Positions 16,300 to 50,533 of a stretch of 64,000 bases of DNA are shown one piece after another. The number at the start of each line of letters is the position of its first letter. Positions within the stretch are counted from its first letter, which is position 1. The stretch lies in contig JAFXUD010000064.1 in the NCBI GenBank assembly GCA_017535315.1, positions 1 through 64,000 of the forward strand, read 5' to 3'. The notes beneath the pieces are model-generated. The model made no database searches. It saw only the letters and a program-made list of their open reading frames with translations, and had not been told where the DNA came from. This DNA is from Victivallales bacterium (GTDB taxonomy: Bacteria > Verrucomicrobiota > Lentisphaeria > Oligosphaerales > Oligosphaeraceae). A program made the position numbers and the translations under genes.

Positions 16300-16365
16300 A
16301 ATTCCCCGTGCCTTCTGTGCATTAAATAGAAAGAGTGTAATTTAGTGCAAAAGGTTAATCGAACA

Positions 16366-27574: not shown

Positions 27575-30500
27575 ATGAAGAGAACATTGTCGATAGTGTC
27601 GTTGTTGGTGCTGGGTTGCCTGTGTGCCCAGGAGAGGCAGATTGCAATTTGGGATTTCACCAAGGGAGTGCCGTCGGGCGAGTACGGGGGGGCGCTTCGC
27701 GCCTGCGGGCGCATCGTCGAGGGCGGGCTTTCCAACGATATCCAGGGGGATACAGCCGCTGGATTCGTTACCCAAAAGGTGCATCCCGAACTGGTGCCCC
27801 AGCAGGGGTTCCGCTACACTGTCGAACTCACTACGGGAAAGGGCGCCTTGCCTGGAGAGAAGAATCTCCGCTGTATGCTGGTGGACAACATGAACGTGAA
27901 CTACAAGCATGAAAACGCCCTCTACAACAAGGGGATTATGTTCTGGCTTGAATGGCAGCCAGCAAGAAAACAATACGTCTTGTCCGCAGCCCTGGGCTTC
28001 GGTGAGGAATCGGAGGTTTTCCGCGGCAGCGCGCTCCCAGTCAACCACGCCTGCACCGTTGCACTTGCCTTCAACGGCATTGACAAGATGTGGTTCGAGG
28101 TCGATGGAAAGCCTGAAAACAAACAGATGGTCGCGCATAGGAGAGCGGTTTCAGCGACACGCATCAAGACGCATATCGGCGACCGCATGAACTCAGTACA
28201 CTGCCCCTTTGATGGCGTCATCGCGAAGGTCACGCTGACAGCCTTCCCGCGGGAAGTCCTGGCGTGTTCCTTTGGTCGCCTTGCCTTTCTGCGCAACGAA
28301 TCCAACGCACGGCTGCACATTCGTCTGCACAACTCCGATGACAAGGTGCTCTCCATCAAGAAGATTAGCCTCCAGTACGACGGGCGGATTGTCGAGATAG
28401 AAGACAAGGCCATCGCGGCAGATGATACGCTTGATGTGGGGGTGCCCATTGAAACCCGCTTGAAAGTCGGGAAATACCCCATTGAAGTGACTGTCGATTA
28501 CCTTTGCGACGGAAGAGAATGCCGCCAACGGTTGACTGAAGAGCTTCTGCTCTCCCCCATCCGCCACGACCGTCTGCCCGTCATCATGATGAGCTACCGC
28601 AGCGGCTTCCCTGAAGAACGTTTAACGGACATTGGCTTCAACATCGGCTGCCGTGGTGGCTTTACGGCTCCCTATCTGCGTGGAGTGCCTAGAGCAAACG
28701 AGGCTTCCATGAGAGAAATCTCCAATCTGGACAGGATGCTTTTTCTTGGCTTCGACGCGATGGACTACACCAACACCAACAACTATGTCAGGGACAGGTT
28801 TCCGCGCATCAACAAAGAAGGCAAGCCATATGAGCCGATTGTGCAGGCAGATGCATCCAACCCCGATGCAAACGCCTTTATCAAAAAAGCCGTTACGGAT
28901 GCCGTCATGCCGCTGGTTGAGCATCCTGCCTTTGTCGGCATGAAAATCAACTCCGAGGTGCGCGACGCCTGCCGCCCCTCCTTCACACCTTTGATGACGG
29001 AGGCGTACAAAAGTGCCACAGGATGTGACATCCCAGACAAGGTAGAGGAGAGATGCCCACCGAACTATCAGCAGTTGGATGACTTCCCCTTCAGCCGCAT
29101 TATTCCCATGGACTATCCACTTTTCAAGTTCTATCGCTGGTGGTGGAAGGAGGGCGACGGCTGGAACAACATGACGGGCATGATCAGCGACTGCGTCAAG
29201 GCCATCGCGGGACGTCCCCTCATCACCTCCCATGACCCCGCTGTTCGCGTGCCCCCGCTTTGGGGCGACGGCGGCAGTGTCGGCTACCTGGGGCACTGGA
29301 CGTATGCCTACCCCGATGCCATCAATGTCGGCATCAACACCGACGAGATGCAGGCAATGGCAAAGGGCAACCCCTCGCAGGGCATCTTCAACGAGACGCA
29401 GATTATCTGCTACCGCAGCAAGACGGCCCCCGTTGACGAGAAAATAGAGAATCCTCCTGCCTGGGCGCTGGAGTTTCCCAACGCCCCCTATATTACCATC
29501 CCTCCCGACATTCTTCGTACCGCTGCCTGGACACAGATTTCGCGCCACGTCAGCGGCATCATGTTCCACGGTTATTGCTCCCTGCTGGTCGATGAACTAC
29601 GCAAGGGGGACACAGGCTACCAGTGCACCAACTTGGAGTCGGCAGGCGTCCTCAAGGAGATACTGCATTCCGTCGTCAAGCCCATGGGACCCGTGCTCAA
29701 GCGGCTTCCTGAACCGCCCGCACAAATCGGCGTACTGGAGAGTCTGGCACCTGTGTTGTTTTCTGGACGCGGCAGTTGGGGGTGGTCCCGTGGCTGGATA
29801 TTCAACTTGAACCTGATGCTTCAGCACGCCAATCTTCAGCCGAAGATTCTTTACGACGAGGAGATACAGCGGGATGGCTTCGGTTCCCTCAGGGTGCTCT
29901 TCATGCCCCACTGCGATGTGCTGGCCGAACCTATCTACAAGGCGGTCACGGAGTTCCAGTTGAAGGGGGGAATCATCGTTGCCGATTCCACCTTGATTCC
30001 AGGCATCACCCCCGACATTGTCATCAATGTGGTGGAGGATGTAGCGGATCCCGTCGCCTTCAACGAAACCATTTGCAAGGGGGCTTTGGAATTGCGCGAG
30101 AAACTGCGCGGCTTTGTGACTCCCATGGTGGAGACCACCACCCCAGAACTCACCACACACTACCGCCAGGACGGTTCAGCCATCTACCTTTTCGCCATCA
30201 ACGGCAAACGAACTTTCGGCGACTACTTCGGCCCTTGGAAGCATGTCTGCGAAAAAGGGATGCCTTTGCAGGCAGGGCTGGACATCCGCTGCAGGGCGGG
30301 TGCCGTCTATGATCTCGTTTCGCACACGCCTGTCAGTTTCACTAGTTACAAAGAGCATACTCACCTGGATTTGGAGTACGAAACCACTGGCGGCAAGTTG
30401 TTCCTGTTCCTTCCCTCGCCCATTGCGAAGGTCATGCTGGTGACGCCCGCGAACGCCGAACTCGGCCAGCCTTTTGTCTTTTCCGCGCGGGTGTATGATG

Positions 30501-30715
30501 CCAATGGCAAACGGATGGAGTGCCTGCTTCCGCTGGAAATCACGGTGGAATCACCCGACGGCAAGACCGACGATTGCTGCTATGGCACCCTTTTAAACAG
30601 CCAGTATTCCCAAACCGTCATTCCGCCGCTCAACGCTTCCGCTGGTGCCTGGCGTGTGACGGTGAAAGAACTCGCCTCTGGAAAATCGGCGACTGGCATT
30701 ATTGCAGTAAAATAG
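27575..30715 (+). CDS. Large secreted glycoside hydrolase-like protein
   Basis: The 1046-residue protein has a Sec-type leader (MKRTLSIVSLLVLGCLCAQ). Residues about 20-215 look like a LamG/concanavalin-type sugar-binding domain. A TIM-barrel-like region spans about 330-690, with candidate acidic residues in GMKINSEVR and QGIFNETQII. A glutamine amidotransferase-like region near 720-800 (VLFMPHCDVLAEPIY, GGIIVADSTL) resembles the trimerisation domain of GH42-type enzymes. A C-terminal beta domain follows. I cannot assign a family, and the catalytic residues are inferred. The stop codon TAG shares its last base with the first base of a 240-bp element. Confidence 0.65.
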   Translation: MKRTLSIVSLLVLGCLCAQERQIAIWDFTKGVPSGEYGGALRACGRIVEGGLSNDIQGDTAAGFVTQKVHPELVPQQGFRYTVELTTGKGALPGEKNLRCMLVDNMNVNYKHENALYNKGIMFWLEWQPARKQYVLSAALGFGEESEVFRGSALPVNHACTVALAFNGIDKMWFEVDGKPENKQMVAHRRAVSATRIKTHIGDRMNSVHCPFDGVIAKVTLTAFPREVLACSFGRLAFLRNESNARLHIRLHNSDDKVLSIKKISLQYDGRIVEIEDKAIAADDTLDVGVPIETRLKVGKYPIEVTVDYLCDGRECRQRLTEELLLSPIRHDRLPVIMMSYRSGFPEERLTDIGFNIGCRGGFTAPYLRGVPRANEASMREISNLDRMLFLGFDAMDYTNTNNYVRDRFPRINKEGKPYEPIVQADASNPDANAFIKKAVTDAVMPLVEHPAFVGMKINSEVRDACRPSFTPLMTEAYKSATGCDIPDKVEERCPPNYQQLDDFPFSRIIPMDYPLFKFYRWWWKEGDGWNNMTGMISDCVKAIAGRPLITSHDPAVRVPPLWGDGGSVGYLGHWTYAYPDAINVGINTDEMQAMAKGNPSQGIFNETQIICYRSKTAPVDEKIENPPAWALEFPNAPYITIPPDILRTAAWTQISRHVSGIMFHGYCSLLVDELRKGDTGYQCTNLESAGVLKEILHSVVKPMGPVLKRLPEPPAQIGVLESLAPVLFSGRGSWGWSRGWIFNLNLMLQHANLQPKILYDEEIQRDGFGSLRVLFMPHCDVLAEPIYKAVTEFQLKGGIIVADSTLIPGITPDIVINVVEDVADPVAFNETICKGALELREKLRGFVTPMVETTTPELTTHYRQDGSAIYLFAINGKRTFGDYFGPWKHVCEKGMPLQAGLDIRCRAGAVYDLVSHTPVSFTSYKEHTHLDLEYETTGGKLFLFLPSPIAKVMLVTPANAELGQPFVFSARVYDANGKRMECLLPLEITVESPDGKTDDCCYGTLLNSQYSQTVIPPLNASAGAWRVTVKELASGKSATGIIAVK

Positions 30716-32439: not shown

Positions 32440-34716
32440 CTATTTCTTGACAAACGCCACGGAGAAATGCCAGTTGACCTTTTGGTTGAGGAGGTTGGAG
32501 GTGATGGCGTTGCGGAACCAGTCGATGTCTTCCTGGGCGAGGCCGTGGCGTTCGAGGGCGTTTGCAAAGGATTCAGGCGCGTTGGAGAACCAGCGGTCAA
32601 TGAGCTGGCGCGTGATGAGCTGCGGACGGGGCATTTCCTCGATGCGGCAGGTCGGCTCGCCCAGACCAGCAGCCTGGAAGGCCTCTATGATTTCATCCAC
32701 ATCCATGGAGACACGCGGGTCATTTGGGTCATGATAGACGGCTTCTTCGGCGGCGGCAATGCGCGACAGGATGGAGGCTTCTTCGGGGATGGTTGGAGAG
32801 GGAAGAAGGGCGTTGAGCCGCTGGCTGCGGCGTGGCAGGTTCTCCGCCAGGCTGATAGTGCCGCCGTCGGCAAGGAGGTGCGAGATGGCGGTGAGGCGGG
32901 CCACTTTGTCGGGGGTGCAGGAGAGTAGATTGCGAGCGACGATGAGCTCGAAGCGGACTTGCCCCAATTGCGACAAGAGCGAGGGCGAGTGACTGCTTGG
33001 GGACGGGACCGACGACGAGACGTCGTCGTTACCCCAACCAACAATGATATTTGGTCGGCGGAGTTCGGTGATGTTCTGGACCAGGTCCTGCAAGGCGGTT
33101 GCTGCTTCGGGGGTGCTGACAAGCGACCAGACGCCGCCTTCGGGGACGGCGCGCACAGCCTCCAGGGTCAGTTCGCCTGTGTCAGCCGTCAAATCCAGCA
33201 CACGTTCATGGCGTTGTAACTTGCGGGCGGCGAAGATGCCTTCGCGGATGACCGCCAGCGTGGCGCTGGTGTTGTCGAGGGCGCGTGCGAGCCACTTGTC
33301 CGTCTTGTCACCAGGCTTTGTGAAGGTGAGGATTTCAGGCGGTGCGGAAGCGTTTTCGTTTTCGCGCAAGGCGGCGATTTGAAGCTCGCGGCGTTGCCGC
33401 ACAATGTCCGCCAGTCCCTTTTCATAGCCGATGGTGCCTGGCTCGTAGAAGATTTTGCCCTGCAAGGTGGAGGGAAGATATTGCTGGGCGACCCAGTGGT
33501 CCTTGTAGGCATGGGGGTACTGGTAGCCGACACCATGCCCGAAACCCTCCTTGTCGCGGCTTCCATCCCGTAGGTGATTTGGCACTTCACCCTCCTTCTC
33601 CTGCTCGACGGCTTTCAGAGCATCGAAGAAGCCCATCACGGAGTTGGACTTGGGGGCTGTAGCGCAATAAAGTGCTGCGTGTGCAAGCGGATAGTGCCCT
33701 TCGGGAAGGCCCACACGGTCAAAGGCTTCCGCCGCTGCGGTGACAAACTGCACGGCGTGGGGGTCGGCCATGCCGATGTCCTCGCTGGCAAAGATGGTCA
33801 TTCGTCGGAAGATGAAGCGCGGGTCTTCGCCTGCATAGACCATTTTGGCAAGCCAGTAGAAGGTGGCATCGGGGTCGGAGCCACGCATGGATTTGATAAA
33901 GGCAGAGATGGTGTCGAAATGGCAGTCACCCTCGCGGTCGTAGAGCACGGCACGCCTCTGGATGGATTCCTCTGCCACCTCCATCGTGATGTGGATAGTG
34001 TTGTTTGCATCGGGCGGGGTGGTTTCGACAGCCAATTCTATGGCATTTAGAGCCGCACGTGCGTCGCCATTGGCGATGTTGGCGATGTGGTCGAGGGCAT
34101 CGTTGTCCATTACCACCTGGAGATTGCCATAGCCTCGTTCCTTGTCTTGAAGAGCCTGCTGGATGATGAGGCGGATGTGCTTTTCCTCTAGCGGCTTCAA
34201 TTGGAAGATTCGCGAACGGCTCACCAATGCGCGGTTGACGGTGAAATAGGGATTTTCCGTAGTGGCGCCGATTAGGATGATGGTGCCGTTTTCAACCCAA
34301 GGAAGCAAGGCGTCCTGCTGTGCCTTGTTCCAGCGGTGGACCTCATCCACAAAGAGGATGGTTCGCTGTCCGAACTCCAGCAGACGTCTCTGCGCGGAAG
34401 TGGTGACGTCCCGCAGGTCCGCGATGCCCGCCATGACGGCATTCAACGTTACGAAAAAACTTTTGGTCGTGTTGGCGATGACGCTTGCCAACGTTGTCTT
34501 GCCCGTGCCAGGTGGACCGTAGAATAGCAGCGATGAAATCTGGTCTGCCTGGACCGCACGTCGTAGAAGACGCCCTGGGGCTAATATATGCTCCTGCCCG
34601 ATGTATTCGTCAAGCGTACGTGGACGCATACGCGCCGCCAGCGGCTGGTCCTTTGCCAGCTCTGTCTCGTGGGTGCGTTCGAATAATGACGGGGTATTGG
34701 AAGAGCTCTTTCTCAT
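32440..34716 (-). CDS. rarA: RarA (MgsA) replication-associated ATPase with methyltransferase-like C-terminal extension
   Basis: Residues 1 to about 450 are a complete RarA: LAARMRPRTLDEYIGQEHI, Walker A GPPGTGKTTLA near residue 68, Walker B LFVDEVHRWNKAQQDALLP, sensor NPYFTVNRALVSRSRIF, and the C-terminal DGSRDKEGFGHGVGYQYPHAYKDHW. RarA acts at stalled replication forks. The remaining 300 residues are extra. They read like a degenerate SAM-dependent methyltransferase: VLDLTADTGELTLEAV in place of motif I and FELIVARNLLS in place of the later core strand. The acidic ribose-binding residue is not evident, so catalysis is doubtful. A serine/proline-rich insert interrupts this domain. Confidence 0.9.
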   Translation of the reverse strand: MRKSSSNTPSLFERTHETELAKDQPLAARMRPRTLDEYIGQEHILAPGRLLRRAVQADQISSLLFYGPPGTGKTTLASVIANTTKSFFVTLNAVMAGIADLRDVTTSAQRRLLEFGQRTILFVDEVHRWNKAQQDALLPWVENGTIILIGATTENPYFTVNRALVSRSRIFQLKPLEEKHIRLIIQQALQDKERGYGNLQVVMDNDALDHIANIANGDARAALNAIELAVETTPPDANNTIHITMEVAEESIQRRAVLYDREGDCHFDTISAFIKSMRGSDPDATFYWLAKMVYAGEDPRFIFRRMTIFASEDIGMADPHAVQFVTAAAEAFDRVGLPEGHYPLAHAALYCATAPKSNSVMGFFDALKAVEQEKEGEVPNHLRDGSRDKEGFGHGVGYQYPHAYKDHWVAQQYLPSTLQGKIFYEPGTIGYEKGLADIVRQRRELQIAALRENENASAPPEILTFTKPGDKTDKWLARALDNTSATLAVIREGIFAARKLQRHERVLDLTADTGELTLEAVRAVPEGGVWSLVSTPEAATALQDLVQNITELRRPNIIVGWGNDDVSSSVPSPSSHSPSLLSQLGQVRFELIVARNLLSCTPDKVARLTAISHLLADGGTISLAENLPRRSQRLNALLPSPTIPEEASILSRIAAAEEAVYHDPNDPRVSMDVDEIIEAFQAAGLGEPTCRIEEMPRPQLITRQLIDRWFSNAPESFANALERHGLAQEDIDWFRNAITSNLLNQKVNWHFSVAFVKK

Positions 34717-34930: not shown

Positions 34931-35007
34931 CTTAACCACTAACCACTAACCACTAGCCACTAATCACTAATCACTAGCCACTAGCCACTAACCACTAATT
35001 ACTAGCT
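34931..35007. repeat. 7-bp telomere-like array abutting a stop codon
   Basis: Eleven consecutive 7-mers stay in perfect register: cttaacc, actaacc twice, actagcc, actaatc twice, actagcc twice, actaacc, actaatt, actagct. On the minus strand the unit reads GGTTAGT. The array starts directly after the stop codon (35006-35008) of the ABC ATPase gene. Confidence 0.9.
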
Positions 35008-35734
35008 ATTTCACACTGCCGACCTTGATATTGAGGTCTTCGCGGCGCTCGAGGCGATCGACGCAGCCGTCCTTGATCCACAGGATTCTGTCGGATGTGG
35101 CCAGCATCTTGTGGTCGTGAGTGGCGGTGACGACGGTGACGCCAAGCCGTCTGGAGAGGTCGGAGATTAAGGAGATAATTTCCTCGCCCGTGACCAAATC
35201 CAGGTTGGCGGTGGGCTCATCCGCCAGAATGATGGCGGGTTCATTGGCAAGGGCGCGTGCAATGGCGACGCGCTGCTGTTGGCCACCAGACATCTCATCG
35301 GGCCTATGCGTGAGGCGGTGTCCAAGACCAACCATCTCCAAGACCTCGATGGCGCGCTTGCGGGCGTCTTCAGGAGACATCCCACTGAAAAGAAGGGGCA
35401 TCGTTACATTGGTGATGGCATCGTAGGCAGGAAGCAGATTGTAGGCCTGGAAAACATAGCCGATGTGGTTCCCACGGAAATGAGCCAGTTGGCGCGCTGT
35501 GAGTTTGGTCAGATTGACTCCAGCCACCTCCACGTAGCCAGAGGAGGGCTTGTCCAAGGCTCCAATCATATTGAACAGCGTGCTTTTGCCTGAGCCTGAT
35601 GGCCCCATGATGGAAAGATACTCACCCTTGAAAATCTCCAGGTTGATGTCTTTCAGGGCTTGGACGGTGGTCTTTTTACCCAGTTTGAACACCTTATTGA
35701 CGTGCTCGACCTTTATGAGAACTTCTTTGTCCAT
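35006..35734 (-). CDS. ABC transporter ATP-binding protein (MacB/LolD type), second of cluster
   Basis: The 242-residue ATPase has Walker A GPSGSGKST near residue 42, the ABC signature MSGGQQQRVAIARAL near residue 147, Walker B PAIILADEPTANLD and the H-loop in TATHDHKM. MacB/LolD-type ATPases pair with FtsX-fold permeases in mechanotransmission rather than channel-type transport. It is the last gene of a seven-gene minus-strand unit and starts 13 nt after the OPT-like permease. The cluster has two ATPases and two FtsX-type permeases, so each ATPase may serve one permease. Confidence 0.95.
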   Translation of the reverse strand: MDKEVLIKVEHVNKVFKLGKKTTVQALKDINLEIFKGEYLSIMGPSGSGKSTLFNMIGALDKPSSGYVEVAGVNLTKLTARQLAHFRGNHIGYVFQAYNLLPAYDAITNVTMPLLFSGMSPEDARKRAIEVLEMVGLGHRLTHRPDEMSGGQQQRVAIARALANEPAIILADEPTANLDLVTGEEIISLISDLSRRLGVTVVTATHDHKMLATSDRILWIKDGCVDRLERREDLNIKVGSVK

Positions 35735-35747
35735 GGCTGCAAAAGTA

Positions 35748-37781
35748 TTAGAATGGCAGTTTGATGACGGCTTTGGAGAGGAAGGTGACGCCCACGCCGA
35801 CGGTTGTGATCAGTCCCATGCCGCAGGAGAAGCCAGCGGCAACGACAGGGATGTATTGGCGCCATTTAAGTTTGAGGCGTTTCTTGAAGTAGAAATGGCC
35901 GATAAGTGCCCCGATGAACTGCGGGAAAATCGTGTGCGGAAGGCTTTGCCCAAGACCGCGCACCACGCCATACGTGAGCATGATGGGCGCACCCAGGATG
36001 CTCATGCCGCCGAAGAGGGCTATGCCGAATCCCATGCCTGCCAGCAGGTAGGTCACGTTGAAGGCCTGCTCGAACATCGAGTACTCACCCATGGTCGAGG
36101 AGTACATGATGCAGTTGTTGGCGGCGGTGAGTTCCCACATCTTCTGCGCATAGGGGTAGGCGACAGAGGGTATTCTGTCCAGCCCCCAGATGAAGTTCAT
36201 GAAGAAGATGGTCGAGAGCAGGATGAGCGGGAAGAGAACAATCTTGGTCTTCCAGATGCTGGTGAACTTGGTGCCTGTCAATTCGCACTGGCGGTAGAAG
36301 ACGGTCATCGTGCCGTAGTTAGCGACTGGCAACGGCAGGAACCAGACGGCCACGCCATGGTAACCAGAGAGGATGAGCGATGCCTCGCGTATCATAGGCA
36401 CCTGTACGACCTGTCCGACCATACCCTCCAGACGCGCTGTCACATAACTGATCAACGGCGTGTAGAAGAAGCCCAGGAAGAGAAGAACGATGAATACATT
36501 GCGGATGTCTCTGTCCCAGTAGCCCCAGGCGCGGGACCAGTCGTATTGGGTATGGTGCAACTTAAGAAGGAAGACGGAAAGAGTGATGTAGGAGGCTTCC
36601 ACCAGGAAATAGCAGAGGATAATGGTCCAGGAACTGATGTCTCCGCGTCCTTTCGGCACGTCGCTCCAGGAACCTTTTGTTTTCTTTGCATTTTTGCTTA
36701 ATCCTTTTATGATGCTCCGCACGACCTGGAAAATGCCCGCGACGGCGATGGCGCAGGCAATGCCGATGTGGAGGCTGAAGTAGAAGTCGATATTGTTCTT
36801 GAAGATGGTGGAGATGGTGTCATCGCCGAATTTCCAGTTGCTGAGGATGCCGTATTTGTAGAGGATGGGGTTGGCGACAAAGGTGATGACAAGGCCAATG
36901 AAACTGCCGACCATGCCGAAGAATGGCATGACCATACCTGTGATGAGATTGCCGAGGTTCCACGACATGCCTGTCGCGACGGCAGGCAGGTACATACCTG
37001 TCTTGCCCGTGAAGTCGGAGAATGGGATGGGGAATATCTGGATGGCCGTGCCAGTAAGTGCTGCCGAGATGACGGGGAGGAAGAGGTAGATGGCTCCAAA
37101 GCCCAGCCCCAGGGCGCCGCCAATGGCGAAGACGCGCCAGCGCCAGGAGTTTTCAGCGGTCTTGGCGTCCTTTGCCTCAATGTCCTCTGCCATGGCCATG
37201 ATGCCTTGTGCACCGACTGGCGCCATCGGGAAGGGTAGTTTCTCCATGTCGCTGGCGATACGGAACAAACCATAGCCAAGGACGAGGTTGGAGAGCTGTC
37301 CGCTGAAGGAGCCGAATAGCATCATAAAGATGGCGGGCAGCCAATCGACATGGAAGAAGGTGCGTTCTGCGTAGGAGACCGATTCGACGGGCGGTGCCCA
37401 CCAGCGGGGAATCTGCCCGATTAGACCATTGGCGGCTGCCGCATCGGACTGGGCGAAGAACTGCTGCCAGAGAAGACCGCCTGTCGTTGCCGCACCCATA
37501 AGGGAGCCTGCCATGAAGAAAAGCACGAAGATTTCCGATTTGTTCAAGTAGCGGTGCGCGCGGCGTGCCACCTCGATGAAGAGGATGACAGTCACCCACT
37601 GGGCGGCGGAGCCGATGCCCGTGCCAGCCAGCAGCCCCATGTAGATGGCGCCTGGCACCATCAGCAACGCCACGAATATCGCGCCAAAGAGAGCTGACCA
37701 GCGGAACCCCTCCTCAAACGTGGAGGGAACTTCCATGATTTTCCGAAACTCGTCAAGTTCTTTATCTATCTTGTGTTCCAT
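35748..37781 (-). CDS. OPT-like multi-pass permease
   Basis: The 677-residue protein has about fifteen hydrophobic segments and no signal peptide. The sequence DMEKLPFPMAPVGAQGIMA near residue 180 resembles a conserved stretch of the oligopeptide transporter (OPT) family, as does the repeated glycine-rich membrane pattern. OPT proteins carry oligopeptides or metal-siderophore complexes; the substrate here cannot be told. It lies 22 nt after the large FtsX fusion and 13 nt before an ATPase, which is an unusual partnership because OPT transporters are secondary carriers that do not need an ATPase. Confidence 0.75.
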   Translation of the reverse strand: MEHKIDKELDEFRKIMEVPSTFEEGFRWSALFGAIFVALLMVPGAIYMGLLAGTGIGSAAQWVTVILFIEVARRAHRYLNKSEIFVLFFMAGSLMGAATTGGLLWQQFFAQSDAAAANGLIGQIPRWWAPPVESVSYAERTFFHVDWLPAIFMMLFGSFSGQLSNLVLGYGLFRIASDMEKLPFPMAPVGAQGIMAMAEDIEAKDAKTAENSWRWRVFAIGGALGLGFGAIYLFLPVISAALTGTAIQIFPIPFSDFTGKTGMYLPAVATGMSWNLGNLITGMVMPFFGMVGSFIGLVITFVANPILYKYGILSNWKFGDDTISTIFKNNIDFYFSLHIGIACAIAVAGIFQVVRSIIKGLSKNAKKTKGSWSDVPKGRGDISSWTIILCYFLVEASYITLSVFLLKLHHTQYDWSRAWGYWDRDIRNVFIVLLFLGFFYTPLISYVTARLEGMVGQVVQVPMIREASLILSGYHGVAVWFLPLPVANYGTMTVFYRQCELTGTKFTSIWKTKIVLFPLILLSTIFFMNFIWGLDRIPSVAYPYAQKMWELTAANNCIMYSSTMGEYSMFEQAFNVTYLLAGMGFGIALFGGMSILGAPIMLTYGVVRGLGQSLPHTIFPQFIGALIGHFYFKKRLKLKWRQYIPVVAAGFSCGMGLITTVGVGVTFLSKAVIKLPF

Positions 37782-37803: not shown

Positions 37804-40800
37804 TTAGGCGTTCTTGGGTGTTTCCTGTTTGTCTTCTTCGGCGAACGTCTGGAGGGTGATCTGGCGGTAATGCTCCATGGTTTCACGCGGAATGGAACGC
37901 CAGATGAGGAACTGCTGCCTCAAATCATCCAGGAACACCTTATTCAGCCTCTGCCAGTCCTTGGGCTGCCCTGAGACGCGCTTGAGGATGACACGCACCT
38001 CGTCGATGCCAGGTATTTCGGAAGGTGTGCTGCGAAGCGCGAACTTCTGCGAGACACCCAGGTCGAACGGTGCCAGTGCTAAACCTGCGTTTAACCCCAG
38101 ACCGTCGTTGTCCTTGACAAGAGCGACCTCGCTGGTCATGAAACGACCAAGACCCGTGTCCGTATGGTTGCCGAAATGCTCCTGAAGGAACGCAACCACG
38201 CCCGTGATGTCATATTGCGAGACAGTGAACGGGAAGACCAAATCCAGCACATCGCCTTTGGGTTCTGGTGGCCGCCAGATGCGCATCAGGCCTGGGTTGG
38301 CGGATTTGGAAGCCTTGATGGCGGGATAGATGGAGGAGATGAGCACGGTGGCCATTACAATCAGGATAGTCACGATGGTGTTGGTGGAGGACATGTTCAT
38401 TTCTGGCACACGCACCAGACCGTATTCGGAGGCGATGCCCAACAGTTTCAATGTCCCCTGCGCCAGCAGATAACCGCCCAGACCGCCTATCAGCGCATAG
38501 ACCATGGACTCCGCGAAGAAGAGGGTTGCTACATGCTTTGGTGCCAGGCCGAGAGCACTGAAGGTGTAGATTTCCTTCTTGCGGTCGGCCACGGAACCAA
38601 GCATGGTACCGAAGATGACCAGTCCGCCCAAGACGATTGGGAAGAAGAGGTCGCGTGCACCGCTGGCCTTCAGGACCGTTCCCTGCAGGTGCCTGTAAAC
38701 ACCGTTGTTGCGGGTCGCAGGAATTGGGAAGGGTATCATGCGGGCCAGGTTCTCGGCGGTGATGATGGCCTCGGCTGGGTCCTTTGTGTAGATTTGCAGT
38801 GCATAGAGTCCCGCGCCCAGGGTCTTGGCTGTGTCGGCGGAGAGAATGGCCACCTGGTCAACAGGAAGGCTGGCCCAGTTTCTCTGGGACATCATCTCCA
38901 TCTCTTCGTCGTCTGCCTCCGCCGAGGCGGAACCCTGCGAGGAGGTGGTTTCGGTAAAGTCCGCAGGAAGAATGCTGCTCGTGTCCATGTCCTTGGCAGC
39001 GGAGAGTTGCACGGCGTCCAGCAACTTGCCGACGGTGAATTGACGCCCCTTGACCAGAATCTTGTCGCCTGGTTTGACATCCAGCGCGTTGGCAAGAGCC
39101 TCTGTGATGAGAACGGTATTGTCGTCGATGCTGCCGAAATATTCCTTCAGGTCGGCCCTGAACTCCAGTTCCTGCGGTTCCACGCCCAGGATGCCGCGGA
39201 CGGTGTTGGGCTTGGTGGCGTCAATCCTGCTGACCAGGAGCCCTGGGTTGTCCTGGGTTTTGGGAGAAATCCAAAGTCTGCGGCAGATGTTCATCTCAGG
39301 CCAGCAGCCCTTGATGACGTCCCGCAGGTCTTCACTCAACGGATTCCAGTTGACGTTGTGGACAAAGGTTCCTGAATAGGTGGGGTTGGGTGCCACGAAG
39401 ATGGTGACGATGCCATTTTGCGTACCAAAGGAGGCGAAGCAGAGGATGGTGAAGGTCAACAGAATGATGGTGATGGCGGTGAGGGCGGTTCTTGTCGGGC
39501 GGCGTCTCATGGTGGAGATACCCATCTGCATGGCCGCCATGAAGGTGGAGATGCTGGAGACGTCGTTGACGTGGACGGTGGCCGTCATCCCCTGGATGGC
39601 CTTCAGTTCCACCTCGAATTTACGCATAATGATGAAGATGACCATGGAGGACATGACCACAATCGCGAATCCCAGGAAGATGATGATGGGGGTGTTAGCG
39701 ATGGCGAAGGCAGGGTGGGAGAAATAGAGAATGAGGAAGGTCAATGCGAAGAAACTGGCAAACCAGTATATCTGCTTGTAAATGGTGGTGGCACCGATAA
39801 TGACGCGCTCCAGCGCGAAGGCGAACGGGACGGAGAGCCCCAGCAGGATGAGGACCGCAAAGACCAGGTCGTCCAGCATGGCGCGGACTTTGTTATAGAC
39901 GGGTCTGGATGCCCAGAAGGCGATGGTGTTCAGGGATTCGCGACGTTGCGGAGTGGTCTCGGGCTTTGCCGCCTCCAGGAGGATGTCCTCCGCACGGCCA
40001 TGCATCTCAGCAAGGGAGGAATCGAGAATGCCTTTGGATTCAAGGATTTCCATGCGCGAATCATTAAGGCGCCATAGGTCGGCGGATGAGCGTGCGGCTG
40101 CATTGATGGCAAGATGGCTGCCGTCCATCGGGAAGCCTTCGCCAATCTGCTCATCGGCGTGTGATTTGCCATCCAGATAGGCAGGGCCGTTGTTCAGACC
40201 GACCATCTGCCTCAGGCTGAAGAGTTTGACGCCTTTTTCACGCTCTTCGGAGTACCAGGTCACAACGCCATCGACAGTTTCGGAGAAGGACTTGTTGGCG
40301 ACCAGGTCGGCGTTGGCGCGGGCGGAGAGAATTTTCACGTCCTCGCCTGGAAGTTTGTCCGTCCTCTGCTGTGAGGGGAGGATAACGGCGGCGGAGTTGG
40401 CCTTGAAGGTGTTGAGGCGCCATTTGACGTTGGGATAGGAACTTTGGTCGGAGACCTCGGCGATACCACCGTTCTTGTTGAAAATGACGGCAAAGCCACC
40501 GCGCGCCCCCCAGGAGCCTGCGATAGGGCCGAGCGAATAGACACCGTTGCTGTTGGTGCGGAGAACTTGGAAATTGTCAAAGGCAAGATGCTTGTTTTCG
40601 TTATATGCCAGCGAGAAACTGCGGGAGAGGCGGAACTGCACCGTTGCCCCGCGCATGGGGGTGTTGGGGATGGAGGTGCCTTGGAGCATACCCATGACCA
40701 TTGGTCCCTTCACCGTGTAGTCTTCCGTGAAACTAGGTATCACATACTCCTTGTTGACGACGATGTTGCGCTTCAGGGAGAGGCCAGTCTGGTTGCCAAT

Positions 40801-42705
40801 CAAATCTTCGGTTATGCCGTCGGAGACGGAGGGGATGGGGCAGAGGGCGGCGGCGATGTCGTCCGCCTGTGCAATGACGTTGTTCAGATTGATGTTCGCG
40901 AGCGTGTCATCGGGCGTGCCCTCACGGGAGGTCGCCTCCTGGACGGTGCCGAAAGCCAGGTTGTAGATGCCGAACATGCCAGCGGGTTCGCCGCTGTGGA
41001 CGAAGGTCACGGAACCCCAGATGACGCGCGTGAGGGAGAGGGTCTGGTTGGCGGATTCCAGAAGGAAGCGATTGGTCAGGCCATTGGCTTCACGTGCCTT
41101 GTGCAGGTTCAGGAAGGAGGTCTGGATTTTGCCGTAGAGCCCTGGATTGTCCTGCCAGGAGTGCATGGATGATTCGCCGCCAATGATGAGAGCCCACTTG
41201 TCCGTGGTGCCTCCCAGTAAAATGGATGCGTGCATGGTCACCCATTTGTCAGAAAAGAGGTCGTAGATTTTCTTGTCGGCCTCCAGGGATTTCTTCTCCA
41301 GTTCCAGCTCATTGGCCCTTGCCTCAATGTCTGCGCGCACCTGGTCCATGATTTCGTCCAGGTTCTTTTTTACTTCTGGCTCCAGGGTGACGGGGTTGCC
41401 GCCGCGGATATCCCGCTTCTGATGGCCGATGACGCGCTGAAGTTCATTCCATGTGTGCTTGGTCGCAGAGGCCTTTGCCAGGAGACCAGGCTTGAGTTGT
41501 TTACCGTTCTCGTCGAAAGTCCCGTTGATTTCAGTGATTCGCGCCTGGATTTTCTGTGGGATGTTCTGCCCATACTGTTTGCGGTAGCCCATCACCTCGT
41601 CGTTCATCCTGTACTCCTGGTCCTTATAGACGTGGGCGGAATTCTGCGCCTTGTCTGCCAGGCGGTCCAGCAGACGTCTGCGGACGTTGGGGGCCTGCGC
41701 TGTCAGCGGGTCTGGCTGCGCGAGAAGTTCGCGCATCTCGCCGATGAACGCTGTCTCCCATTTGTGGGATTCCAGGCGTGTCTCGACCTTGAAGTCCTGC
41801 TTGTCGTTTTCGATGGCTCTGTAGAAGATGCTGCTTCCCTGGTGACCGCGCGCCTGATTGTCAAAAAAGGCGACCAGCACATGGCGGCGTGGACGATACT
41901 TGGCGATGTTCTCTGCAATGCGGAGCAGGGCGGCGCAACTTGCCGCCGAGCGTGCCCCTGGGGAGAGGGTGGGGATTTCGCCGAATGAATCCAGATTGGC
42001 GGCCAGAATGATGATTTCATCTTTTTTCTGGCTGAAAACTGGGTCTGTGCCTTTGAAAAGGGCGAAGATGTTTCTTCCGATGGTGGGTACCCAGCGGACG
42101 GAACTTTTGATGGTGACGGTTGTCCCGTCTTTGGGAAGGTCCGCAGGGTTGCCGTTGTAGTAGTAGCGGAGCAGGTTGACATTGGCGTCTGCGAAATGCG
42201 GATTTCTGGCCTCCGCAAGGTCGGGCTTCGTGAAGACGACGGCGACGGCTCCCAGGCGGAGCGCGCGCACCCAGCCCTGTCCGCAGTTGTAGTCAAGCAC
42301 GACAATGCAGTTTTCGACTGGAACCTTGTCAAAATCGTTGGCAGTGCCTTTCCCGATGTGGACAATGGGGCCTGTCACGCCGCCCTCGGGGGTGACGGGC
42401 GGGATGATGCCGTTCGGGCGCATCGGCATGAGTTCCAGAAGGGCACCGTCTTTGACCTGCATGGTTGCGGAGATGGTCTCCGTCTGCGTGGAGGCAAAGG
42501 GCTGCTCGAATAGATCATCGGGCTGCAACGCCTGGAGTCTGCCATAGACATAGTCTGCCGCTTCGGCATACTCCTTGGTGCCGCTGAGACGATGAGGATG
42601 CTTGGTCAAAGCCTGGCAATCCGCATTGAAATCCTGCGCCAATGTTGCAACGGTGGTCACTGCAAAGGCGAAAACTGCATTTCGGATGTGTGCTAGAAAT
42701 CTCAT
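37804..42705 (-). CDS. M28 pseudo-peptidase/FtsX-type permease fusion, 1633 residues
   Basis: An N-terminal leader is followed by a segment like M28 aminopeptidases with an inserted PA-type domain (GPIVHIGKGT, CIVVLDYNC). The zinc-ligand motif expected as H-x-D reads ANLDSFGEIPTLSPGARSAASCAALL, with N in place of H, and the expected E-E pair reads FFDNQARGHQGSS, so the domain should not bind zinc normally. From about residue 960 there are three membrane segments, then a MacB-like extracytoplasmic domain (VEPQELEF, ALANALDVKPGDKI) and the FtsX core with GTMLGSVADRKKEIYTFSALGLAPKHV and AIKASKSANP. It follows an ATPase gene by 37 nt. Confidence 0.85.
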   Translation of the reverse strand: MRFLAHIRNAVFAFAVTTVATLAQDFNADCQALTKHPHRLSGTKEYAEAADYVYGRLQALQPDDLFEQPFASTQTETISATMQVKDGALLELMPMRPNGIIPPVTPEGGVTGPIVHIGKGTANDFDKVPVENCIVVLDYNCGQGWVRALRLGAVAVVFTKPDLAEARNPHFADANVNLLRYYYNGNPADLPKDGTTVTIKSSVRWVPTIGRNIFALFKGTDPVFSQKKDEIIILAANLDSFGEIPTLSPGARSAASCAALLRIAENIAKYRPRRHVLVAFFDNQARGHQGSSIFYRAIENDKQDFKVETRLESHKWETAFIGEMRELLAQPDPLTAQAPNVRRRLLDRLADKAQNSAHVYKDQEYRMNDEVMGYRKQYGQNIPQKIQARITEINGTFDENGKQLKPGLLAKASATKHTWNELQRVIGHQKRDIRGGNPVTLEPEVKKNLDEIMDQVRADIEARANELELEKKSLEADKKIYDLFSDKWVTMHASILLGGTTDKWALIIGGESSMHSWQDNPGLYGKIQTSFLNLHKAREANGLTNRFLLESANQTLSLTRVIWGSVTFVHSGEPAGMFGIYNLAFGTVQEATSREGTPDDTLANINLNNVIAQADDIAAALCPIPSVSDGITEDLIGNQTGLSLKRNIVVNKEYVIPSFTEDYTVKGPMVMGMLQGTSIPNTPMRGATVQFRLSRSFSLAYNENKHLAFDNFQVLRTNSNGVYSLGPIAGSWGARGGFAVIFNKNGGIAEVSDQSSYPNVKWRLNTFKANSAAVILPSQQRTDKLPGEDVKILSARANADLVANKSFSETVDGVVTWYSEEREKGVKLFSLRQMVGLNNGPAYLDGKSHADEQIGEGFPMDGSHLAINAAARSSADLWRLNDSRMEILESKGILDSSLAEMHGRAEDILLEAAKPETTPQRRESLNTIAFWASRPVYNKVRAMLDDLVFAVLILLGLSVPFAFALERVIIGATTIYKQIYWFASFFALTFLILYFSHPAFAIANTPIIIFLGFAIVVMSSMVIFIIMRKFEVELKAIQGMTATVHVNDVSSISTFMAAMQMGISTMRRRPTRTALTAITIILLTFTILCFASFGTQNGIVTIFVAPNPTYSGTFVHNVNWNPLSEDLRDVIKGCWPEMNICRRLWISPKTQDNPGLLVSRIDATKPNTVRGILGVEPQELEFRADLKEYFGSIDDNTVLITEALANALDVKPGDKILVKGRQFTVGKLLDAVQLSAAKDMDTSSILPADFTETTSSQGSASAEADDEEMEMMSQRNWASLPVDQVAILSADTAKTLGAGLYALQIYTKDPAEAIITAENLARMIPFPIPATRNNGVYRHLQGTVLKASGARDLFFPIVLGGLVIFGTMLGSVADRKKEIYTFSALGLAPKHVATLFFAESMVYALIGGLGGYLLAQGTLKLLGIASEYGLVRVPEMNMSSTNTIVTILIVMATVLISSIYPAIKASKSANPGLMRIWRPPEPKGDVLDLVFPFTVSQYDITGVVAFLQEHFGNHTDTGLGRFMTSEVALVKDNDGLGLNAGLALAPFDLGVSQKFALRSTPSEIPGIDEVRVILKRVSGQPKDWQRLNKVFLDDLRQQFLIWRSIPRETMEHYRQITLQTFAEEDKQETPKNA

Positions 42706-42742: not shown

Positions 42743-43528
42743 TCAGTGGGAGTCGATTCCGCCGATTTCGATGTGGACATCTGCGCGGTCGGCGATTCGG
42801 TCGATATGGCCGTCGCGAATCCACATCAGCCTGTCGCAGATGTTCATCATGCGGTGGTCATGCGTCGCGCAGATGATGGTGACGCCGTTTTCCTTGTTGA
42901 GTTTCTGGAGGAGTTCCAGAATCTCCTGTCCTGTATGCAGGTCAAGGTTGGCGGTCGGCTCGTCGCAGAGGAGGACACTGGGGTTGTTGGAAAGGGAGCG
43001 GGCGATGGCGACGCGCTGCTGCTGTCCGCCAGACATTTCGATTGGCCTGTGGTGCCAGCGTTCCTTCAAGCCGACCAGCTCCAGCAGGGACATGCCGCGT
43101 TCGCGGGCCTCGTCGGGCATGACGCCGCCAAACGCCATCGGGGTCGTGACATTTTCCAGGGCGGTCATATATTTGATGAGGTTGTAACTCTGGAAGATGT
43201 AGCCGATTTTATGGCAGCGGAGATAGGCTAGTTCTTCGGCGGTGAGTTGCGCCACATCGACCTCGTCAATGAAGACGCGCCCGACAGTCGGGCTGTCCAA
43301 GGCGCCGATCATGTTGAAGAAGGTCGATTTGCCCGAACCTGACGGCCCCATGACAGCGATGAACTCGCCTTGGTAGATGGAGACGTCAATGCCGCGGAGC
43401 GCCTCCGTGACCACGCCTTTCATCACGAATGACTTGCGTAGCCCGACCGTTCTGATGATGACGCGCCTGCCTTTACTGTCGTTTTCAGGCTGAACGGCTG
43501 CCTGTTTGTTGGATGTAGTTTCTGTCAT
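42743..43528 (-). CDS. ABC transporter ATP-binding protein (MacB/LolD type), first of cluster
   Basis: The 261-residue ATPase has Walker A GPSGSGKST near residue 61, signature MSGGQQQRVAIARSL near residue 167, Walker B PSVLLCDEPTANLD and H-loop ATHDHRM. An N-terminal tail of about 25 residues precedes the domain. It lies between two FtsX-type permease genes, 25 nt after the first and 37 nt before the second, so it could drive either or a heterodimer of both. Confidence 0.96.
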   Translation of the reverse strand: MTETTSNKQAAVQPENDSKGRRVIIRTVGLRKSFVMKGVVTEALRGIDVSIYQGEFIAVMGPSGSGKSTFFNMIGALDSPTVGRVFIDEVDVAQLTAEELAYLRCHKIGYIFQSYNLIKYMTALENVTTPMAFGGVMPDEARERGMSLLELVGLKERWHHRPIEMSGGQQQRVAIARSLSNNPSVLLCDEPTANLDLHTGQEILELLQKLNKENGVTIICATHDHRMMNICDRLMWIRDGHIDRIADRADVHIEIGGIDSH

Positions 43529-43553: not shown

Positions 43554-45164
43554 TTATTCTACTCTCATGGCTTCCATCGGGGCAAGGCGTGCCGCCTTGT
43601 AGGAGGGAATGACTGCGGAGATGGCGGCCAGCAAGGTGCCAAGGAGAATGGAGATGAGCATGCCCAGCATCAAGTCCCCCAGCGGAATGGCGGTGAAGAA
43701 GGCGGAGCCGAAGGAGACGAGCATGCGGCTCAGGCCGATGATGCCTCCGAGAATGGAGCCGATGATGCCGCCGACCAGCCCCATGAAGCAACTTTCCAGC
43801 ACGAACATGATCATGATGAAGCCATCCAGTGCGCCAAGACATTTCAGGGTGGCGATCTCATTGAAGCGTTCAGTGACCGCCATCATCATGGCGTTGGTAA
43901 TGCCGATACCGCAGACAAGCATGGAGACGAAGAGCAGCCAGGCAAGGCGCTCGCCCAGTCCCATGAAGCCTTTGCCCGCATCCAGAGTAAGACGTTCTGC
44001 GCGGACCAGGGCGGCATTTTCCGTCCTGCCTCTGGCCAGTTCCACCATCCTGTCGGCAGTCAGGTCATCGACGGCGGCCTCCTCTGCGCTGATGCCTTCC
44101 AGCACAATCGAACTTCCATCGGCCTCAGTGGTCAGGGACTTTTGGGCAAGCTGCTCGACTTCATGCATCTTTGTAAGGTACCTTGCCGCGAACTTTTTGC
44201 TTTCAAGGTGCTTCCACATCATGACCACGTTCACGTCTGCGGGAAGGACATTTGCCTGCTGCGCAAGGAGTTGTCGGAAGGGAAACTCAACCTTTTTTTC
44301 AGGCTTTGCGTTTTCCTCCTTGGGCGGGAAGATATGGGTGATGCGAATCTCCATGCTCTTTTCAAGGCGCAAGGTGTCAAGAAGTTTTTTTGCCTGAGTG
44401 GAGATTTCAGGGGCGGTTTTCTGCTGGTCGAAGATGAAGCCTGCTTCGCGAATGGTTGCTCCGAAATCCTTTTCCGAATCGGCAAGGGCCTGCAGGAGGG
44501 TGCGCCCATTGAGCTTGGCTGTGACGGCGGCTATTGCCTGGGTACGGGCTGCCAATATCTTGTTCGTGATATCCGTGATGGTGCCGTACTGCTTCACAAG
44601 TTTGTCAAGTTCATCCATGGGCATCTCGAAATGGATGGATTTGATGCGTGACAGCGCGACTTTGAAAGTTTCCATTGCCTCTGGATTGGCAAGGTGCTCC
44701 AGGATGCCAAGTCCCTCAGCGCGGTGAATCATGGAGCGGCGTTTGGCGTAGTCCAGGTCTTCAAAGAAGTTGATCAGGAAGACAGTCTTCTTGGAGATAG
44801 CCTGGAAGGAGGCCATATCGGCGTCCGAAAGGGCGGCAAACTGCTGGTTTTCCTTATAGATGTCGCTTTCCGCCGAGGCGTCTGCCGTTTCAAATACGAT
44901 GGATTCAGGGCTGCCAGGCGAACTGAGTTTTGCGCTCCAGTCATAGATTTTTCTGGATGTCTGGATACGTTCGCGGGTGTTGGCTGCGACGTTCCTCTTG
45001 ATAAGGCTCTCCGACAGGATGTTCATCAGGAAGGCGACTGCCAGCGTGATGACGGCCACGGTGACGGAGGCGCGGAATAACCTGTATTTGATGCCGTCAA
45101 TGGTAATCTTGACGGTGCGTTTCATGCTGAGCCACGGTTGGTCGGCTATGGTGATTGCCTTCAT
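43554..45164 (-). CDS. FtsX/MacB-type ABC permease
   Basis: The 536-residue protein has one N-terminal membrane segment (VTVAVITLAVAFLMNIL), a roughly 330-residue helical extracytoplasmic part, then three membrane segments with the FtsX core (GIGITNAMMMAVTERFNEIATLKCLGA, and closing IPSYKAARLAPMEAMRVE). The EIATLKCLGA segment is the coupling region of MacB-like transporters. The extracytoplasmic domain is more helical than usual MacB. Its start overlaps the PqqD-like stop codon by 4 nt (ATGA), so translation is coupled. Confidence 0.92.
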   Translation of the reverse strand: MKAITIADQPWLSMKRTVKITIDGIKYRLFRASVTVAVITLAVAFLMNILSESLIKRNVAANTRERIQTSRKIYDWSAKLSSPGSPESIVFETADASAESDIYKENQQFAALSDADMASFQAISKKTVFLINFFEDLDYAKRRSMIHRAEGLGILEHLANPEAMETFKVALSRIKSIHFEMPMDELDKLVKQYGTITDITNKILAARTQAIAAVTAKLNGRTLLQALADSEKDFGATIREAGFIFDQQKTAPEISTQAKKLLDTLRLEKSMEIRITHIFPPKEENAKPEKKVEFPFRQLLAQQANVLPADVNVVMMWKHLESKKFAARYLTKMHEVEQLAQKSLTTEADGSSIVLEGISAEEAAVDDLTADRMVELARGRTENAALVRAERLTLDAGKGFMGLGERLAWLLFVSMLVCGIGITNAMMMAVTERFNEIATLKCLGALDGFIMIMFVLESCFMGLVGGIIGSILGGIIGLSRMLVSFGSAFFTAIPLGDLMLGMLISILLGTLLAAISAVIPSYKAARLAPMEAMRVE

Positions 45165-45541
45165 TTGTCTTCCTTCAACATTATTGCAAGTACCCCGCGC
45201 TGGATTAGCTTTCTGAGATAATCCGTCACGGCTGTTTTAGCCTCGTGAAAGGTCAGTTTGTAGTCCCTGGAGAATATGTCGCATAGCTGCTCGACAGTGT
45301 GGTTGCCGTCGCAGCAATGCCAAAGCTTGGCTCCAGGGCCGTCAAGCTCTATCGTTATCACTGGCTTGTACGGGACAAACCAGCTGATAGGCGGTATCCG
45401 ATAGCCAGGTTTTTGATTCCTGACCGAGACGGAAACCGTGTTCTCTTCGTCTTTGAGCACCTTTGCCGCCTCGTTGCGTACTGGCGTTGCCGCCAGCATG
45501 GAACGCCATTCGGCGTATTTTTGCCCGTTAGGAGATTTCAT
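45161..45541 (-). CDS. PqqD-like (RiPP-recognition-element-type) protein
   Basis: The 126-residue protein has an extended N-terminus of about 65 residues, then a domain matching the PqqD pattern: ITIELDGPGAKLWHCCDGNHTVEQLCDIF followed by a helix and LRKLIQRGVLAI. PqqD-type domains bind the leader of peptide precursors, and related domains occur in many RiPP enzymes. No radical SAM enzyme, precursor peptide or other maturation gene is seen here, so the partner may be a permease or another protein. It overlaps the preceding and following genes by 4 nt each. Confidence 0.85.
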   Translation of the reverse strand: MKSPNGQKYAEWRSMLAATPVRNEAAKVLKDEENTVSVSVRNQKPGYRIPPISWFVPYKPVITIELDGPGAKLWHCCDGNHTVEQLCDIFSRDYKLTFHEAKTAVTDYLRKLIQRGVLAIMLKEDK

Positions 45542-46416
45542 GCCTTCACCTCCTGCTTCTTACAGCATGAAAGAGTGGCAAAAGGCCATTCTTTCTTGTT
45601 GCGGTGGGCATGGGTTGCCACGAAATAGAGGCGTTCGTCTTCAGGGCAGATCCAAGCACAGGCATAGATCGTCCGCTGTCCGTGAAGCCAATCGACCAGC
45701 ACGCTTGGCGAACGCTGTGCTTCCAGCCGCCAGAGGACATGTCCATTCTCGGTGGAAGATTCCACCGAAGTGACTTTGTACTCTTTGGGTATCTGCGCCT
45801 CCAGCCATTGGCGGACGTCGGTTTTTAGCCAACAAGCCAGCATTCCACGTCTGCTGAAGCGTTGTGTCAGGCGTTGCTTGCGGTTGTTGAAGGTGGCTTC
45901 CGCGAGACCTGGGGATATCTGGCAGGTGTCGAAGGAGAGCTGTCCAGCCGTCGTCCAATCCATGCCGAATGCGCGCCATCTCTGGCGTCCGTCAGCAGAA
46001 GGAGGTCTGGCCTTGATGGAATCAAGGATGCGTCCCTCGAAAGAGGGGCTTGCCTTTTCTCCCTTCGCCCAGATGAACACGGCCTCCAGGATGCAGGAGC
46101 CTCCTGGAAGGAATGTCCCATATCGCGAGACAGGAACACCCTTTTCTTTTCCCGATGCACCGAGCCACTGGGCGTGGCACGATTTTGAGACAGACTCCAG
46201 GCCGTCTTCCTGCAGTTTGGCGACATAGTCGGCTGCCATGCGTTCCATGTCGGGCGGCGCATCGACACGCATCCAGTCCAGTTCAAATCGGAACTGGTAT
46301 CTGTCTGCGAATGCGCATCGTCCGCTTTCTGGATTACGTGTGAACTGAAGCATTTCCCAGTCATCGGGCAGGGATAGTTCAATTCCATTCCATAGCCAAC
46401 TCTGCAAAGCAAACAC
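45538..46416 (-). CDS. Hypothetical protein, first gene of the PqqD-FtsX-OPT cluster
   Basis: I do not recognise this 292-residue protein. It has no signal peptide or membrane segment. Two similarly built halves may exist: GIELSLPDDWEMLQFTR at the start and a comparable stretch after DGRQRWRAFGMDWTTAGQLSF near residue 145. Tryptophans are frequent, and it ends with a cysteine pair (SCCKKQEVKA). It starts with GTG at 46416 and overlaps the PqqD-like gene by 4 nt, so it is probably made in fixed ratio with it. A cytoplasmic adaptor or substrate-binding role for the cluster is only a guess. Confidence 0.75.
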   Translation of the reverse strand: MFALQSWLWNGIELSLPDDWEMLQFTRNPESGRCAFADRYQFRFELDWMRVDAPPDMERMAADYVAKLQEDGLESVSKSCHAQWLGASGKEKGVPVSRYGTFLPGGSCILEAVFIWAKGEKASPSFEGRILDSIKARPPSADGRQRWRAFGMDWTTAGQLSFDTCQISPGLAEATFNNRKQRLTQRFSRRGMLACWLKTDVRQWLEAQIPKEYKVTSVESSTENGHVLWRLEAQRSPSVLVDWLHGQRTIYACAWICPEDERLYFVATHAHRNKKEWPFATLSCCKKQEVKA

Positions 46417-50416: not shown

Positions 50417-50533
50417 AAATATAGAACTCCAAAGAACTCCAAAAAGAATCCCAAACCTGTTTGAAATTTGCGCAATATTATATTAATGTAAAATTGGATT
50501 ATTATAGCTGTAATCAAGAACAAGGAAAGAGTG

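Follow-up and report, generated by a model that had tools for sequence, protein, structure and literature searches.

A catalytically dead M28-fold domain fused to an FtsX-type permease in a conserved operon of a Victivallales bacterium

The window analyzed here is a stretch of 64,000 nucleotides from a Victivallales bacterium (assembly GCA_017535315.1, contig JAFXUD010000064.1, positions 1 to 64,000), to which all coordinates refer. Seven genes lie head to tail on its minus strand, separated by gaps of -4 to 37 bases. The first encodes a conserved protein of 292 residues (45538-46416) that is syntenic in orthologous loci and gave no family match, a PHROGs search also returning empty. It is followed by a PqqD-like protein of 126 residues (45161-45541; Pfam PqqD, E 5.5e-9), for which PHROGs and PDB searches gave nothing, and by an FtsX permease of 536 residues (43554-45164; Pfam FtsX, E 2.3e-14). 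Then come a LolD-type ABC ATPase (42743-43528, E 2e-64), the 1,633-residue fusion protein that is the subject of this work (37804-42705), as the next gene an OPT-like transporter (35748-37781; Pfam OPT, E 7.5e-8; 31.9 bits against a PF03169 cut-off of 25.8) and a second LolD-type ATPase (35006-35734, E 2e-70). In both ATPases the Walker A motif, signature and H-loop appear intact by inspection.

Near the operon, on the plus strand, lies an OPT-related DUF6785-DUF6784 membrane protein (50531-52615) with weak kinship to the OPT-like protein (hhalign E 5e-5); at least six proteins of this type occur in the genome and none in 14 control genomes. Elsewhere the window encodes a 758-residue RarA/MgsA-type AAA ATPase (32440-34716, minus strand; Pfam MgsA_C, E 8e-62) with a methyltransferase-like region towards its C-terminus (residues 494-630, E 3e-4), an unusual fusion if real. 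It also holds a 768-residue chain joining HTH, cupin and AMP-binding (acyl-CoA synthetase-like) domains (16345-18651, plus strand), and two putative open reading frames of more than 1,000 residues (23397-26447, minus strand, and 27575-30715, plus strand) that have no Pfam match at E 0.001.

The bounds and strand of the fusion gene agree exactly with a preliminary description of this DNA, which had proposed an M28-like peptidase domain joined to an FtsX permease. The chain begins with a probable signal peptide (residues 1-24, 42634-42705), recognized by eye from MRFLAHIR, a hydrophobic stretch and TLA. An M28-fold domain without a catalytic site follows (residues 25-645, boundary approximate, 40771-42633), identified by AlphaFold2, Foldseek and profile comparison, and within it lie a PA-like segment (residues ~85-200, 42106-42453; Pfam PA and profile alignment) and a helical insert (residues ~307-484, 41254-41787; AlphaFold2 helices at model residues 288-465). 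A beta-rich domain visible as AlphaFold2 strands (residues 646-850, 40156-40770), which has no family match, leads to three transmembrane helices (residues 947-1030, 39616-39867; hydropathy and AlphaFold2 helices), an FtsX/MacB-type permease core with its periplasmic domain (residues 1070-1475, 38281-39498; Pfam and Foldseek) and a C-terminal domain, predicted to be cytosolic, that carries no description (residues 1484-1622, 37840-38256). This overall architecture is well supported by the open reading frame, the domain matches and 74 full-length homologues, one of which (L008) is 93% identical; the nearest homologue comes from a goat-rumen assembly. A chance or decaying reading frame is ruled out by this conservation together with the dN/dS values given below.

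When the whole fusion protein is scanned, Pfam returns no match to Peptidase_M28; when the ectodomain is scanned alone the family is above its cut-off (E 4.6e-6; 26.9 vs 21.3 bits). The family is also matched by 23 of 52 homologues. An AlphaFold2 model of residues 20-960, built on a 52-sequence alignment, has a mean pLDDT of 93.4 and a pTM of 0.91. Foldseek searches of the PDB with this model place M28 aminopeptidases first (2ek8, E 7.4e-17; YwaD 6hc7, E 1.6e-15), followed by human transferrin receptor 1 (E 3e-15) and glutamate carboxypeptidase II. A sequence profile built from 23 members of the family picks up 2ek8 (E 3.6e-15), YwaD (E 7e-11), nicastrin (E 1e-6) and the transferrin receptor (E 2e-6), and its alignment to 2ek8 and YwaD spans the N-terminal helix and the PA-like segment; Pfam PA itself is matched by 6 of 52 homologues. 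Profile and model thus both identify the M28 alpha/beta fold, as had been proposed from motifs. The fold reaches residue ~645 rather than 450, because about 180 helical residues (307-484) are inserted between the strand of the E-E pair and that of the fourth zinc ligand.

We mapped the M28 site by profile alignment to YwaD, 2ek8 and the genuine M28 proteins encoded in this genome (L092 and L093), in whose sequences HxD, Asp, E-E and the terminal His are all present. At the HxD position the fusion reads AANLDS (residues 235-240, 41986-42003), with the His lost (N237) and the Asp kept (D239). At the GAxDN position it reads GARSAAS (residues 250-256, 41938-41958, within S-P-G-A-R-S-A-A-S at 248-256), where the bridging Asp is replaced by R252 or S253, a register uncertain by one residue. 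The E-E position falls in FFDNQARGHQGS (residues 280-291, 41833-41868), which has Q284 in place of the catalytic Glu and A285 in place of the ligand Glu. The two remaining assignments rest on weak alignments: L496 replaces the Asp of the fourth ligand in SILLGG (residues 494-499, 41209-41226; hhalign to L092, E ~3e-3), and G596 takes the place of the terminal His of HTPxDT in REGTPDDT (residues 594-601, 40903-40926; hhalign to L093, E 5e-4). In the AlphaFold2 model predicted strands end at or just before N237, Q284 and L496, as expected for M28.

None of the five zinc ligands is therefore left at the profile-assigned positions, and the catalytic Glu is also replaced, so that the domain is predicted to be catalytically dead. 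The preliminary description had read N-L-D for H-x-D and N-Q-A for the E-E pair, both correctly, and had taken the rest of the segment to keep the M28 layout. The motifs are present, but the bridging Asp, the fourth ligand and the C-terminal His are gone too; as judged from the aligned sequences, the active site is more fully lost than was then recognized. Intact ligands hidden elsewhere in the chain were considered and rejected, since alignment to the M28 structures in the PDB and to the active M28 proteins of the same genome assigns no ligand in the window protein.

The same loss runs through the homologues. His237 occurs in 8 of 74, the bridging Asp in 6 (lost in 68), the catalytic Glu at 284 in 4 (lost in 70) and an Asp or Glu at the fourth-ligand position in 31, while neither the second Glu (E285) nor the terminal His (H596) occurs in any; D239 is present in 72. 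No homologue keeps more than three of the five ligands, and 35 of the 74 keep none of the six site positions (five ligands and the catalytic Glu). A complete M28 site is absent from all 74 full-length homologues, and site loss is, at the aligned positions, general in the fusion family. Homology to the peptidases implies an active ancestor of the domain, and none of the 74 full-length homologues represents one with the site intact. The most divergent homologue (L066, 6457-11481, plus strand), which forms the longest branch in the tree, keeps four of the six positions, the maximum seen: the His and Asp, the catalytic Glu and the fourth ligand, without the second Glu and the terminal His. It may record an earlier stage of site loss, though the branch is very long.

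The domain without its site shows the marks of purifying selection. Relative to the 93%-identical homologue, dN/dS comes to 0.073 over residues 25-345 and to 0.076 over residues 486-645 (range 0.05-0.08 over the M28 part), against 0.005 in the transmembrane region. Among 35 orthologues (in the tree, a set of 35 rows has 98% SH-aLRT support), mean conservation is 0.58 for residues 25-640, 0.81-0.86 for the transmembrane and FtsX parts and 0.81 for residues 940-1040. Around the old site, several residues are nearly fixed in the orthologues: D239 (97%), R252 (94%), N256 (94%), D282 (100%), Q284 (89%) and H288 (94%). The window protein departs from this set at position 256, where it has Ser and 94% of orthologues have Asn. 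Because dN/dS is ~0.07 and a new set of conserved residues occupies the former pocket, the M28 domain is best described as a predicted pseudoenzyme that is maintained rather than decaying, its old site having apparently been given a new conserved make-up.

The second half of the protein is a permease of known kind. Pfam FtsX matches residues 1355-1467 above its cut-off (E 1.4e-12), MacB_PCD is sub-threshold (0.0019), and a model of residues 600-1633 (pLDDT 82.6) matches 5xu1, LolCDE and MacB in Foldseek (E ~1e-10), and also HrtBA, YbbAP and BceAB, which bears out the proposed fusion to an FtsX permease of MacB/LolC type. Hydropathy predicts about seven transmembrane helices, the three at 947-1025 and then the four of FtsX, and the four-helix FtsX core carries a periplasmic domain between TM1 and TM2, as in Type VII ABC permeases. 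The protein is not MacB proper: its reading frame has no N-terminal ATPase, and a survey of open reading frames and Pfam matches found no MacA-like gene in the operon. The other FtsX protein of the operon is related to this permease (hhalign E 4.6e-12) and is closest to LolC/E. Given an N-terminus exported by the signal peptide judged by eye, and the number of transmembrane helices, the M28 and MacB-like domains would lie outside and the C-terminus inside. The outside location first suggested for the M28-like domain thus agrees with its position ahead of the first transmembrane helix, and holds only if the presumed signal peptide is right.

The C-terminal domain has a conservation of 0.79 in orthologues and no sequence match in Pfam or the PDB; several weak Foldseek matches to SRPBCC/START/Bet v1 folds have E values of 0.02-0.04 and TMt of 0.31-0.46. 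Its ~140 residues (minus strand) contain invariant PF, PxD and WR motifs in the homologues of alignment A4. In the phylum sample it occurs in fusion ORFs, with a few short frames also listed.

The fusion appears to belong to a conserved multi-gene machine, which the preliminary description overlooked. Operon gene order is conserved in orthologues, and the OPT-like gene lies directly downstream of the fusion in 46 of 49 loci. Among 52 loci with flanks, an ATPase is nearby in 45 (both are intact in the operon studied here), a second FtsX gene in 40 (shorter in distant paralogues), a DUF6785 family member in ~33 and a PqqD-like gene in 28. Across 388 genomes of the phylum, fusion and OPT-like gene occur together in 68, the fusion only in 3, an OPT-like fragment only in 1 and neither in 316; in at least two of the four mismatches (G183 and G338) the match stands at the end of a short contig. 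This co-occurrence rules out the OPT-like gene as a mere neighbor. The distribution of the fusion itself is patchy (71 of 388 genomes). Beyond the phylum the search took the form of a six-pattern contig scan, with weak coverage, and of plasmids, where no match to the fusion was found.

The genome of the window carries two copies of the fusion, on C9 and C85, and exactly two of the OPT-like gene, one immediately after each fusion. The second fusion (L052, 6079-11088, on C85) lies in a paralogous cluster with OPT-like, DUF6785, FtsX, ATPase and PqqD-like genes; it is ~31% identical in the permease, and its M28 site is incomplete too. A separate LolC/E-like permease is encoded at C9:92199-93443 (E 7e-88), which rules out the fusion system as a replacement for LolCDE.

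All the building blocks belong to known kinds; for the combination we found no published description. Searches of Pfam, NCBIfam and the PDB returned no entry describing an M28-FtsX fusion or the operon, and literature searches found no papers on M28-FtsX fusions, on DUF6785 or on Lentisphaerae with PqqD and ABC transporters. YwaD/BSAP (6hc6) and 2ek8 share the fold, the PA-like segment and the strand order, but are active zinc enzymes, whereas the fusion has all five ligands and the catalytic Glu replaced. Nicastrin, the pseudo-M28 subunit of gamma-secretase, also presents an M28 fold that lacks a zinc site at the outer surface of a membrane complex, and its motifs (RLDS, APGAESA) align with those of the fusion. 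Nicastrin is nevertheless eukaryotic, has a single transmembrane helix and an intramembrane protease as partner, and lacks FtsX, an ABC ATPase and an OPT-like partner; the fusion, with about seven predicted helices, scores 15.7 bits against the nicastrin family cut-off of 25 (PF05450). Transferrin receptor 1, a non-catalytic M28B protein, resembles the fusion in its extracellular M28 and PA fold, but is a eukaryotic single-pass dimer that binds transferrin and has no ABC component. MacB, LolCDE, YbbAP and BceAB share the FtsX transmembrane core, MacB-like periplasmic domain and LolD-type ATPases; we know of no such system with an M28 ectodomain, three helices so placed ahead of FtsX, such a C-terminal domain or a partner of OPT-like type. 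That partner gene matches OPT transporters (PF03169), to which DUF6785 is weakly related; here it is linked to ABC machinery, a linkage without description in the literature searched, and we know of no other link between FtsX-type ABC motors and OPT-type transporters.

The computations show the fold, the loss of its site throughout the family, the FtsX core and the genes linked to the fusion gene, which encode a second FtsX permease, two intact ATPases and an OPT-like transporter. On this basis we modestly favor a reading in which the fusion supplies the large permease subunit to a heteromeric Type VII ABC machine and its dead M28 domain recognizes, without hydrolyzing it, what is most likely a peptide or the N-terminus of a protein. 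Since relatives share this design beside the same partner transporter, the dead enzyme has probably been kept as a binding part. Both PqqD-like and OPT-like protein groups are associated with peptides. With these neighbors, recognition of a polypeptide end together with the OPT-like protein is favored because Type VII systems use ATP to power movements on the periplasmic side (PMC12646458) and because nicastrin, itself an M28 protein without activity, has been called a substrate gatekeeper (PMC9076685). The receptor role suggested in the preliminary description would thus follow by analogy, from the fold, from nicastrin and transferrin receptor 1 as dead relatives and from the neighboring genes. 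The machine would be a heteromeric mechanotransmission ABC assembly of the inner membrane, its two FtsX proteins pairing over the two ATPases as LolC does with LolE. ATP binding would move the ectodomains, the M28 pocket would hold or gate a polypeptide, and the OPT-like protein would move or release it, perhaps aided from the cytosol by the PqqD-like protein. Against this count Ser256 in the window protein, the presence of the PqqD-like gene in just 28 and of the second FtsX gene in just 40 of the 52 loci, and the fact that known Type VII systems mostly handle lipids, lipoproteins or hydrolases, many without transport across the membrane (PMC12646458).

An almost obligate link with the OPT-like gene would also be expected if the dead M28 domain bound no substrate and were only a scaffold joining the OPT-like and DUF6785 proteins or the second FtsX subunit, a role that the greater variability of the ectodomain relative to the transmembrane and FtsX parts would suit. 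A domain acting purely as a scaffold would not have to retain a new, near-invariant set of residues around a former active site, and we regard this as an unlikely account. Slightly less credible still is a lipid or lipoprotein machine like LolCDE or YbbAP-TesA, in which lipid would be bound by the C-terminal cytosolic domain, and the ectodomain would be a docking site for a chaperone or hydrolase of the periplasm. Both ATPases are closest to LolD and the second FtsX protein to LolC/E, the permease half matches LolCDE, MacB and YbbAP, the C-terminal domain has its START/Bet v1-like matches, and YbbAP has been proposed as an extractor of hydrophobic molecules (PMC12646458); but those START-like matches are weak, the genome already has its separate LolC/E-like permease, and partners of the OPT-like and PqqD-like kinds suggest peptides. 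An FtsEX-like regulator, with the ectodomain as a docking arm that switches cell-wall hydrolases on and off, would draw on the same permease superfamily and on the ability of Type VII systems to act without transport (PMC12646458), yet the patchy distribution and near-invariable OPT-like neighbor are ill-suited to a core division regulator and no recurrent hydrolase gene is seen in the homologous loci, which makes it very improbable. Least probable of all is a new metal or catalytic site formed by residues such as D239, D282, H288 and H492, which are 94-100% conserved in orthologues but stand outside the M28 ligand positions; Arg252 and Gln284 in the old site do not favor a metal.

On the recognition reading, non-catalytic M28 relatives that are receptors or gates in eukaryotes, such as the transferrin receptor and nicastrin, would have a counterpart on an ATP-driven bacterial permease. 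Catalysis is lost in every one of the dozens of homologues, and their old pocket appears rebuilt. The family also joins FtsX-type ABC motors to OPT-type transporters and brings in a conserved cytosolic domain without a library name. As the cultured relative Oligosphaera ethanolica (L014) has the whole cluster, the machine is open to laboratory test. More speculatively, Lentisphaerota and their relatives could possess a new class of envelope machine, in which a Type VII motor of two FtsX proteins and two ATPases is physically coupled to OPT-family proteins and a dead aminopeptidase acts as the periplasmic polypeptide receptor. In that case it would translocate peptides or proteins at the expense of ATP, resembling none of the known ABC or OPT systems, and would provide bacteria with a parallel to nicastrin's gating role.
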